Assembly: GCA_017559825.1 (NCBI GenBank)
Contig: JAFYQR010000130.1
Span: forward strand, 1-64,000
DNA from: Thermoguttaceae bacterium
GTDB lineage: Bacteria; Planctomycetota; Planctomycetia; Pirellulales; Thermoguttaceae
Direction: 5' to 3'
DNA: 64,000 bases
The notes under the pieces are model-generated. The model ran no database searches. It worked only from the letters and a program-made list of their open reading frames with translations, and was not told where the DNA came from. Shown piece after piece: positions 24,757-28,952 of the stretch. The stretch's first letter is position 1. The number at the start of each line of letters is the position of its first letter. The translations under genes and the position numbers were made by a program.

Positions 24757-26850
24757 TTAACGCTCCGGTTTCGGAACGCGGGTTCGTCCGGTCGAGGAAC
24801 CGTCTCTCGCGCCCCGTTTGCCGCGACCGCGTCCTCGTCCGCTCTTTCGCGCTTGCCGCTCGAAATCGGCGAGCGTCGTTTTCTTTCCGATTTGTTCGCG
24901 CAGCGCCTCGACTTGGTCGCGCAGCTCCGCCGCCCGTTCGAATTCGAGCGCGTCCGCCGCTTCGAGCATTTCTTTTTCGAGCGCGGCGACGTATTCCCGG
25001 GTAACGTATTCTTGCTCGTCGGCGGCGCCCGCCGCTTCGTTCGCCCGTTCGCGAGCGGCGATTTCCGCGTCGATCCCGGCTCGAACGCCGCGTTTGACCG
25101 TCTCCGGCGTGATTCCGTGTTCCTCGTTGTACGCCTGTTGCAAGCGTCGGCGACGCTCCGTTTCGTCGATCGCTTTGCGCATCGAGTCGGTAATTTTGTC
25201 GGCGTAAAGGATAACTTTCGCGTTGACGTTCCGCGCGCTCCGCCCGATCGTTTGAATCAGCGACGTTTCGCTCCGCAGAAAGCCTTCTTTGTCGGCGTCG
25301 AGAATCGCGACGAGCGACGCTTCCGGGAGGTCGAGCCCTTCGCGGAGGAGGTTGACGCCGACCAACACGTCGAAAACGCCGTTGCGCAAGTCGCGCAAAA
25401 GCTCGACCCGTTCGAACGCGTCCAACTCGCTGTGCAACCAGCGACACTTGATATTTTGTTGCGTAAAATACGACGCGACGTCTTCGGCGAGTCGCTTCGT
25501 CAGCGCCGTTACCAAAACGCGCTCTTTCTTGGCGACGCGTTCTAAAATCTGCTCGCGCAAGTGTTTAATCTGAATATCCGCCGGAACGACTTCGATAATC
25601 GGGTCGAGAAGCCCGGTCGGACGAATCGCCTGTTCGACGACGCGACCGTTCGAGGCTTGAATTTCGTATTCGGCGGGCATCGCGCTGACGAAAACGACCT
25701 TGTCGACGCGCTCTTCCCATTCGTCGAATTTGAGCGGGCGGTTGTCGAGGGCGCTCGGCAATCGGAACCCGTGTTCGATCAAATTCCGTTTGCGCGCTTG
25801 GTCTCCGGCGAACATCGCGCGGATTTGCGGAATCGTAACGTGCGACTCGTCGACGAAGAGGAGAAAATCGTCCGGAAAGAAGCTGAAAAGGGTTTCCGGC
25901 GGCTCGCCCGGCTTGCGGTCGGCGAGAATCGCGCTGTAATTTTCGATTCCCGGGCAAAAGCCGATTTCCTGCATCAGCTCCATATCGTACCGCGTTCGCG
26001 CTTGGAGCCGTTGCGCTTCGAGCAACTTCCCTTGGTCGCGAAACTTTTTCACCTGCGCCGCCAACTCGACTTCAATCCGCTCGATCGCGCCTTGAATCCG
26101 CTCCTCCGGCAAGACGAAGTGTTTCGCCGGGTAAATAAACGCGTCTTGAACGGAGCCGATTTTTTCGCCGGTCGTCGGATTGACGAGGCTTAACGCTTCG
26201 ATCTCGTCTCCCCAAAACTCGATTCGAAGCGCGTATTCCTCGTAAGAGAGACGCGCCTCGACCGAGTCGCCGCGCACTCGGAATTGGCCGCGTTCAAAGG
26301 CGACGTCGTTCCGCTCGTACTGAATGTCGACCAGCCGACGCAGCAAATCGTCGCGGTCCATTTCGTCGCCGACGCGGAGCGAAACGGTCAAATTCTTGTA
26401 GTCTTCCGGCGAGCCCAAGCCGTAAATCGAGCTGACGCTGGCGACGACGATCACGTCCTGGCGGCTGACGAGCGAACTGGTGGCGGCCAAGCGCAGACGG
26501 TCGATTTCGTCGTTGATCGACGCGTCCTTTTCGATGTAAATATCCCGTTGCGGAATATAGGCTTCCGGCTGATAATAGTCGTAATAGCTGACGAAATAGG
26601 AAACGGCGTTGTTCGGGAAAAACGCTTTAAATTCATCGTAAAGCTGCGCCGCGAGGGTCTTATTGTGCGACAAAACGAGCGCGGGCCGCTGCAGTTCCTG
26701 AATGACGTTCGCCATCGTGAACGTCTTCCCGGAGCCGGTGACGCCGAGGAGCGTTTGTTTTTTCGCGCCGTTTCGAAAGCCGTCGACGAGCGCGCGAATC
26801 GCCTTCGGCTGGTCTCCGGACGGTTCGAACGGTTTCTGCAAATCGAACAT
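24757..26850 (-). CDS. uvrB: Excinuclease ABC subunit B
   Basis: 697 residues, slightly longer than Escherichia coli UvrB because of a basic C-terminal extension. It is the DNA-damage verifying helicase of nucleotide excision repair, working with UvrA and UvrC in the cytoplasm. Walker A is GVTGSGKT at 36-43; the beta-hairpin that clamps the strand is at about 88-102 ([12 protein letters not shown]). The helicase motifs [13 protein letters not shown] and the QTIGRSARN arginine-finger motif are intact, and a UVR domain ([19 protein letters not shown]) precedes the basic tail [10 protein letters not shown] strong promoter (26926-26953) lies in the end of the upstream gene. No LexA-like box was recognised. 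Confidence 0.97.
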
Positions 26851-26867: not shown

Positions 26868-27725
26868 TTAACGCTCGTTAAAAACACTTCCAGCGAAACG
26901 CCGAACGCCGACGCTCGAATCGTTAATTATACCCGCTTTAACCGCCGCGTCAAGCGGACTTGCGATAAACGCCGCGCTGCAAAAATTCAAGGAAACCGCG
27001 ATCGCGTAAAAGTTGCGTCTGCTGACGAATTTTCTCCCTAATATGATCGTTCTTCGGATATTTTCGTTCAACTCGTCGACGAACGCGTAAACGTCGTTTA
27101 AACGAAAAACGTCCGTCGGAATTTTTTCAATACAGGTCATCACCTCAAGAAGCCAACCGCGGCTTTCTAAGTTTCTCGTTTGCAACCGTTCGCAACGCCG
27201 ATACGCCGCAACGACTTCCGTTTTTTCAAGCGCCTTTCCATCTCGAACAACGGGAACGCGCCCGCTTTCCGGAATCTCACTCAACCAAATTTTACTACCA
27301 ACCCAACCGGCGCGTCGAGCCGTCGCCGGTAAAGGAGATCGACGTTCGACGACGCTCGGCGTAAAGAAAAATTTTGGAATCAACGTCAAACCGCAAACTT
27401 CGAAACGCGTTCCCGCAACCCGATATTCTAGCGCTAACAAATGCGGATTTTTGTCGCTCGTAATTCGTTTGATCGTCGCGTCGTAAGCGCCGCCGGAAAT
27501 TTTCCGTCCAAACTTTCCTTTTTTACTTTTCAGCTCGAAAATTTCGTTGCAGCGCGAACAAAAAAAATCGGCGACCGGTTTGCCGTTCGGAAATTTTGTT
27601 AATCGGTCGTTTCCGCAACAAGGACAAAAAAGTTCCTTCGCCGCCCAAGGTTCGCTCATTACGCGCGTCTTTTGCGAACCGCTCGAATAATCGTTCGCCA
27701 ACGCTTCGTCGAAAAATAAATTCAT
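26868..27725 (-). CDS. DpnI-family methyl-directed restriction endonuclease, frameshifted near its C-terminus
   Basis: The open frame gives 285 residues. Residues 1-225 align closely, from memory, with DpnI of Streptococcus pneumoniae, which cuts G(m6A)TC: SQKTRV at 17-22, zinc cysteines 34, 37, 56 and 59, and a PD-(D/E)xK active site Asp53, Glu64, Lys66 (VADFF, then FELKSKKG), all at the same residue numbers. After residue about 222 the frame becomes unlike DpnI. Another frame reads [18 protein letters not shown] and on to GVYRKSA, which matches the DpnI winged-helix domain, and stops at 26950. One extra A in the AAAA run (T run at 27061-27064 on the given strand) would join them. It may be a lesion, a phase-variable site or a sequence error. 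It starts 24 bases after the Gfo/Idh gene. Confidence 0.85.
26926..26953 (-). promoter_or_regulatory. Promoter for uvrB, inside the end of the DpnI-like gene
   Basis: On the minus strand, TTGACG (26948-26953), 16 bases, TATAAT (26926-26931), about 75 bases before uvrB. The TTGA of the -35 contains the stop codon that the DpnI-like gene would use if its frameshift were repaired. Confidence 0.7.
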
Positions 27726-27749
27726 CGCCGTTTTTTCGTTCTTCGTTCC

Positions 27750-28952
27750 TTAAAGCGATTCCCAACGCCGGCTCGCGACCGAGCGTTTGACGACGTCGAG
27801 CGCGTCTTGGATTCGCAAACCTTGCGCCAAATCCGGGCCGAACGAGCCGCCCTCGCCGACCGAACGGTAAAACGTCGCCAACGACGCGACGTGCGCTCGC
27901 AACCAGCCGGTCGTCGATTTCGCCGACGGGAAGTCGCACTCCGGCGCTTCGTAACGCGCGCCCGCCGCGATTCGCGTCCAACCGGATTCGCCGCCGTTCG
28001 GCCCGCTCGGTTTCGTTCCGTCGAAAAACTCCAAATAGTGCGGCTCCATCAGCGAAAACCTTACCGCGCCTTGCGTTCCGCCGATCTCGAACGTCATTTC
28101 GTCCTCCGCGCCGGTCGCCAACTTCGTCGCTTCGACGACGCCGGTCAACGCCGCCGGATTCGTCGGGTCGCTCGCCGCGTCGTTTTTCGCCGGGCGCGAC
28201 AGGCCCCGCGTCAAAATCGAAACGGCGTCCTCCGCTTCGACCGGGCGCGTCGGAACGTCCGCCGCGTTCTCGCCCTGTCGAATTGCTCTCTCCGGTCGCG
28301 TCGGCCAAAGAGTCGTCGCCGTCGCCGTCAACTCCGCCGGAAGTCCTACCAAATAGTCGGTTAAGTCGAGCAAGTGCGAAGCTAAGTCGAGAATCGTTCC
28401 GCCGCTGGGCGCGTGTTTCCAACGGAACGGCGCCGACGCGTCCAAAGCGCCCGCGTGATAGTAGCCGATTCGATAACGAACCAACCGCCCGAGCCGCCCC
28501 GACGCGATCAGCTCTTTCGCCCGTCGAATCGCCGCGAACCCCCGCAAGTGAAACGCGACTTGCGTCGGCGCGTCGTAACCGGTCTCCGCCAACGCCGCCC
28601 GAACGGTCGCCGCCTCCGCCGCGTTCGAAACGACCGGCTTTTCGCAGTAAATCGGCTTTTTACAGCGAATCGCGGCGAGAAGCGCGGGCAAGTGTTCCGC
28701 GTTCGGCGCGCAAACGTGAACGACGTCGACCGCCGGATTCTCGATCAACGCCGTCCAATCGGTCGTCGCCAACTCGCAGCCGAGCGTTTGTCGCGCGGTC
28801 TCCGCCGTCTCCGCTCGACTCGTCGCGACGCCGAAAATCCGCGGCGCGACCGTCAAACCCGGCGCGAAAAACGGCAAACTAGCCAAGCCGTAAGCGTGCG
28901 CTTTGCCGATCATTCCGAACCCGATCAACCCGACGTTCAACGTTTTTTTCAT
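27750..28952 (-). CDS. Gfo/Idh/MocA-family oxidoreductase (cytoplasmic)
   Basis: 400 residues. The Rossmann fingerprint GLIGFGMIGKAHA is at 8-20, and the family EKP motif with its catalytic lysine is present in IYCEKPV (about residues 95-101). The C-terminal domain has GGTILDLASHLLDL, which carries the usual Asp/His pair. There is no Tat or Sec signal, so it acts in the cytoplasm as an NAD(P)-dependent sugar, inositol or related dehydrogenase. The substrate is not predictable. The next gene on the strand is the DpnI homologue 24 bases later, so the two may share a transcript even though no functional link is obvious. Confidence 0.87.
   Translation of the reverse strand: MKKTLNVGLIGFGMIGKAHAYGLASLPFFAPGLTVAPRIFGVATSRAETAETARQTLGCELATTDWTALIENPAVDVVHVCAPNAEHLPALLAAIRCKKPIYCEKPVVSNAAEAATVRAALAETGYDAPTQVAFHLRGFAAIRRAKELIASGRLGRLVRYRIGYYHAGALDASAPFRWKHAPSGGTILDLASHLLDLTDYLVGLPAELTATATTLWPTRPERAIRQGENAADVPTRPVEAEDAVSILTRGLSRPAKNDAASDPTNPAALTGVVEATKLATGAEDEMTFEIGGTQGAVRFSLMEPHYLEFFDGTKPSGPNGGESGWTRIAAGARYEAPECDFPSAKSTTGWLRAHVASLATFYRSVGEGGSFGPDLAQGLRIQDALDVVKRSVASRRWESL

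Follow-up and report, generated by a model that had tools for sequence, protein, structure and literature searches.

The question raised by this locus is whether a DpnI-type restriction gene whose reading frame breaks inside its winged helix has been damaged, switched or misread, and how such a gene came to end within the promoter of uvrB. It lies in a 64,000-nucleotide stretch (the window) of contig JAFYQR010000130.1 of a Thermoguttaceae bacterium (GCA_017559825.1), where an open reading frame on the reverse strand, 26868-27725, was confirmed to code for 285 aa. We consider it highly probable that this is an orphan DpnI gene, horizontally acquired and inactivated by a single-base frameshift in the winged helix, with a gain in the ancestor of its clade and a later deletion in six sister genomes. 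The features on which the argument rests are collected in Table 1.

Table 1. Features of the DpnI-uvrB locus, in window coordinates.
Feature	Position	Strand	Basis
Residues 1-221 of DpnI in frame 0, comprising the catalytic domain (PF06044) and half of the winged helix (its first)	27063..27725	-	profile and structure-sequence matches, PADLOC
Second half of winged helix (PF17726 positions 36-70), other frame; TGA stop at 26952-26950; K229/R231 counterparts	26950..27063	-	profile match, homologue frames
Frame-change site at an ordinary AAAA tract	27061..27065	-	sequence, homologue frames
Predicted disordered end of the 285-aa frame-0 product, read out of frame	26868..27062	-	ORF, pLDDT <50 at residues 229-285
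uvrB promoter, TTGACG-16-TATAAT; -35 overlaps the DpnI stop	26926..26953	-	sequence, pattern match
20-base block upstream of the -35; GVYRKSA in the DpnI frame; kept in six DpnI-less sisters	26954..26973	-	genome comparison
uvrB, downstream neighbour	24757..26850	-	annotation by match
GFO/IDH/MocA oxidoreductase, upstream neighbour	27750..28952	-	annotation by match
Stretch present in the window, absent at the same place in G064 (773 vs 48 bases)	26978..27750		alignment

The body of the gene is that of a DpnI-family enzyme. A profile search matched PF06044 to residues 1-183 of the 285-aa product (4.5e-66), the sequence of the DpnI structure (PDB 4esj) matches residues 1-221 (1.9e-58), and PADLOC assigns the product to the type II methyl-directed restriction enzymes (1.3e-72). 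An earlier sequence-only reading had named D53, E64 and K66 as catalytic residues and Cys34, 37, 56 and 59 as zinc ligands; the former are all kept at the aligned DpnI columns and the latter are likewise present. Family membership suggests a methyl-directed restriction endonuclease, with a predicted specificity for Gm6ATC.

The winged helix, by contrast, is divided between two frames. Residues 187-221 of frame 0 match positions 1-35 only of the 70-position PF17726 profile, whereas positions 36-70 are matched by the DNA from 27063 to 26953 in another frame (6e-16), whose translation aligns to DpnI chain residues 223-256 (2.8e-8). The proposed frame change at about 27061-27065 is thus borne out, the alignment to DpnI continuing past residue 222 in the other frame. 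The statement that the DNA-reading domain is removed holds for the second half of the winged helix, which is lost, and not for the first half, which stays in frame 0. No complete C-terminal winged helix is found in the frame of the catalytic domain, and since its two halves lie in two frames, the gene is a broken member of the DpnI family and not a complete enzyme.

Comparison with homologues indicates that the split is a lesion and not a different architecture, because all 14 homologous loci from other organisms, as well as 11 loci of the same family (L017-L027), have the end of the first piece and the second piece in one frame; in L012 the first piece carries a split of its own, farther upstream. 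The long frame ending at 26868 was considered as a conserved form and rejected: its tail is matched in five genomes, and a second time in G058, but what matches is a translated uvrB promoter block and not a DpnI fusion. Nor do close relatives all share that long frame, since the nearest ones have no DpnI at the site.

Three readings had been offered for the frameshift, and a real lesion is the best supported among them. That it is recent agrees with its being the sole lesion found in the gene, with the lack of any other frameshift among the window's 55 compared ORF loci, and with the presence of more broken copies in related genomes. A sequencing or assembly error, behind which the true gene would be intact and active, is improbable. 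The assembly is in 240 contigs and is 91% complete, and a one-base change in a short A run, with the remainder of the gene intact, is what such an error could look like. When the window was compared with 80 kb of syntenic DNA from the sister genome G064, however (55 ORF loci and 20,888 aligned aa in one direction, 49 loci and 19,912 aa in the reverse), G064 showed no candidate frame change and the window only one, which turned out to be non-coding sequence extending upstream from a start. Because the remainder of the window is free of frameshifts, an error at the DpnI site is unlikely; moreover, AAAA is below the usual length for homopolymer errors.

The suggestion that slipped-strand mispairing in the A run toggles restriction fared worse, and we regard a phase-variable switch as very unlikely. 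The frame does shift in a homopolymer, but no long mononucleotide or short-unit tract occurs there. The tract has four bases only, in a window with 281 A4 and 296 T4 runs as well as longer ones, and an A tract is absent from the frame-change place in 20 homologues, in a comparison set with one genome per species. Phase variation is therefore without support, the AAAA being ordinary and not shared by homologues. Full-length DpnI could also be made from the split frames by programmed ribosomal frameshifting, the needed shift being in the -1 direction and near A-rich codons. This too is very unlikely: no X XXY YYZ heptamer was seen at the site when read by eye, folding of the downstream RNA does not exceed that of shuffled sequences (z = +1.0), and the homologues need no shift for a full-length product.

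A real lesion of this kind would be expected to disable the enzyme. The out-of-frame piece has a K and an R as the counterparts of DpnI K229 and R231, assigned with a three-residue offset between chain and protein numbering in the 4esj match. The accessible text of PMC4117772 reports that the winged-helix mutants K229A and R231A each impair the enzyme and that in the double mutant DNA binding by the catalytic domain is severely compromised too. Against inactivation stands that the literature describes the catalytic domain of DpnI as methyl-specific in itself. In the predicted structure of the frame-0 product, the catalytic domain is confidently modelled and confidence falls in the out-of-frame tail (Table 1). 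Because the lost half holds the K229 and R231 counterparts, inactivity of the 285-aa product is very probable, and we infer that it does not restrict DNA.

The place of the gene in the chromosome bears on how it arrived. As had been noted, a sugar oxidoreductase, of the GFO/IDH/MocA family, adjoins DpnI. DNA of G064 aligns to the window up to 26977 and resumes at 27751, so that the DpnI gene fills the gap between oxidoreductase and uvrB. Its GC content (48.3%, vs 64.1% and 58.6% in the neighbours) points to horizontal acquisition. Six of the genus's 20 genomes (G058, G059, G061, G062, G064 and G065) have the site without DpnI and keep the same uvrB promoter. In 12 others whose sequence was read, oxidoreductase and uvrB lie within about 100 bases of each other without the 20-base block of Table 1, and G076, where the spacing alone was read, shows the same distance. 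The DpnI genes of other family genomes sit at other places.

At its 3' end the repaired frame meets the promoter of uvrB as the sequence-only reading had it, the TGA stop falling inside the -35 hexamer TTGACG (26953-26948). The promoter pattern TTGAC-N17-19-TATAAT has 64 matches in the genome (the one at the locus and 63 others) vs 1 for a reversed control, an excess that is a strong signal of putative sigma-70-type promoters. The 20 bases upstream of the -35 are identical to the window in five of the sisters and differ by one base in G065; with the letters that follow they read G-V-Y-R-K-S-A-stop, and most DpnI homologues end in a form of EFLxRGxYRK. Across the window's 127,996 codon positions, the pattern G.[YF][RK]K with a stop no more than five codons on is present a single time, besides one match that contains a stop. 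Upstream of 27 other such promoters of the genome (recovered out of 30 loci fetched, from the 64 matches), 3-12 of 20 bases agree with the block, which is thus no general promoter element.

The similarity extends upstream of the block. When the anchored spacers of the empty sites were compared with the DpnI 3' end, the score was reached by 1 of 1000 shuffles for G061, 18 for G062, 30 for G064 and 46 for G065; the test is weak for G058 and G059 (109 of 1000 each). A model of leader plus DpnI 3' end, summed over three of the six empty-site spacers (G061, G064 and G062), scored 43, which none of 99 DpnI-internal, 120 shuffled or 150 window control tails reached; the G064 spacer alone does not beat these controls (7/99, 7/120 and 6/150). 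On this similarity the empty sister sites look like deletion scars. Since DpnI tail codons stand in six empty sites with scar-like spacers, a probable history is gain of the gene by the common ancestor, its deletion in the six, and its frameshift here.

The course of events may then be sketched as follows. With good support, DpnI would have entered the ancestor of the seven-genome clade between oxidoreductase and uvrB, and its last codons would have become the sequence upstream of the uvrB -35. A later deletion in the ancestor of the six sisters would have left the 5' leader and approximately the last 35-55 bases of the gene, while in the window genome a frameshift would have arisen inside the winged helix. 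Trees of rpoB, built for 18 of the genus's 20 genomes (leaving out G071 and G075, where rpoB is split), join the window genome to the six as their sister (support 100/100, or 99.9/100 with codon positions 1+2), so that one gain and one deletion suffice. The tree of the uvrB locus leaves the root of the clade unsettled (26/60), by which more than one loss is possible; re-acquisition of DpnI at an old scar in the window genome is possible as well.

That unsettled root also leaves room for a simpler course, compatible with the frameshift, in which DpnI was gained in the window genome only, by recombination at a pre-existing uvrB promoter, and the sister sites were never occupied. It would take one event rather than two, and by a rough estimate some 12-15 bases of microhomology at one end could suffice. 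We think it unlikely, for the DpnI C-terminus can already be read, in frame and up to a stop, at the sister sites, the similarity runs on upstream of the block (1 of 1000 shuffles for G061, and none of 369 controls for the summed spacers), and the agreement of 3-12 bases at the 27 other promoters speaks against a common promoter element.

Under the preferred reading, of an ancestral gain followed by deletion, conservation of the block suggests that the tail may matter for uvrB expression. More tentatively, and as a possibility that we hold to be somewhat short of probable, the gain of DpnI may have supplied uvrB, in this clade, with a promoter of its own whose upstream edge, together with part of the -35, consists of the last codons and stop; selection on the promoter would then have kept the tail after the enzyme was lost, leaving a lasting regulatory element from an immunity gene beside a DNA-repair gene. 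If so, turnover of restriction genes can alter the regulation of DNA repair.

The description of the gene as an orphan, with no methylase in the window, holds for the D12 class, which is absent from the 64 kb; the three D12 matches of the genome lie on other contigs and score below the TIGR00571 cut-off (73.5, 65.2 and 56.8 vs 114.85 bits), and no match to PF05869 was found in this genome, 91% complete. Avoidance of GATC was considered and rejected: the window has 234 sites vs 290 +/- 15 in dinucleotide shuffles, but under a trinucleotide model the ratio is 0.90 of expectation, rank 9 of 16 palindromes, which is no signal. At 1.53 times expectation in the window, CATG contrasts with the syntenic 80 kb of G064 (L077-L080), where it stands at 0.36 times, which suggests a possible history of CATG-directed restriction in G064 only.

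Across the 16 family genomes with a DpnI body, TIGR00571 exceeds its cut-off in G051 and G066, where DpnI is broken, and in G068 and G053, where it is intact (the G053 match being truncated C-terminally), and does not in the window genome (G000) or G116, both broken; the cases are too few for a conclusion on a link between Dam and broken DpnI. Two of the DpnI-less sisters carry full-length Dam-type methylases (G059:C164:5427-6242 and G065:C73:5038-5853, 291 and 293 bits). In G053 (L088:6572-8509, contig C31) a D12/Dam-type methylase of 325 aa with an N-terminal extension, matching TIGR00571 positions 1-228 of 267 only, overlaps the start of the intact DpnI, which is followed by a 71-aa ORF that we take to be DpnD-like. 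This dam gene looks like one truncated by a DpnI insertion, as in Neisseria drg.

Turnover of DpnI is the rule in the family. Broken copies are present in 4 of those 16 genomes, G000, G051, G066 and G116. Besides the window gene, copies interrupted by frame changes, stops or contig ends were seen at L094:2392-3149 (G116), L092:123-598 with L096:7237-7494 (G066), L093:8003-8707 (G051) and L012:1903-2660. The homologue at L095:9334-10047 (G060:C14) retains all four zinc cysteines as well as a winged helix, but K and I stand where the catalytic D53 and K66 would be expected; it is possibly a methyl-reader without cleavage. Viral carriage was considered and rejected, no relative being found in the viral contigs searched.

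The locus would thus be a clean case of turnover of an orphan methyl-directed restriction gene, with gain, frameshift in one species and deletion in six sisters, where the deletion ends at the overlap of DpnI with its neighbour's promoter. It is ordinary decay plus one evolutionary curiosity at a promoter. The frameshift alone is ordinary, such alleles of DpnI-type genes being already published for Neisseria drg: in N. meningitidis, single-base frameshifts were reported in 3 of 19 fragment alleles, in the accessible text of PMC516771. In the literature searched on frameshifted DpnI genes or a promoter link, the drg precedents alone were found, and a DpnI tail kept as promoter-flanking sequence was not. 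What is new is the exact placement between oxidoreductase and uvrB, and the presence of GVYRKSA-stop, directly before the uvrB -35, in six sisters that lack the gene.

With R.DpnI of Streptococcus pneumoniae (4esj, 4kyw; PF06044 + PF17726) the window gene shares the two-domain plan, D53/E64/K66, the four zinc cysteines and the sequence around K229/R231; unlike it, the winged helix is split across two frames, and uvrB, not a DpnD-like gene, comes next. The pneumococcal DpnI/DpnII alternative cassettes are likewise a case of DpnI at a site that in some relatives has no such gene, as the available part of PMC12707154 describes, whereas at the window site there is no alternative cassette and the sister sites are empty. 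Neisseria drg (dam replacing gene, NmeBII), as presented in the accessible text of PMC4269198, is likewise an orphan, low-GC DpnI homologue between housekeeping genes; but drg occupies the dam/leuS locus, whereas the window DpnI lies between an oxidoreductase and uvrB, with its tail kept in sister genomes as promoter-flanking sequence.
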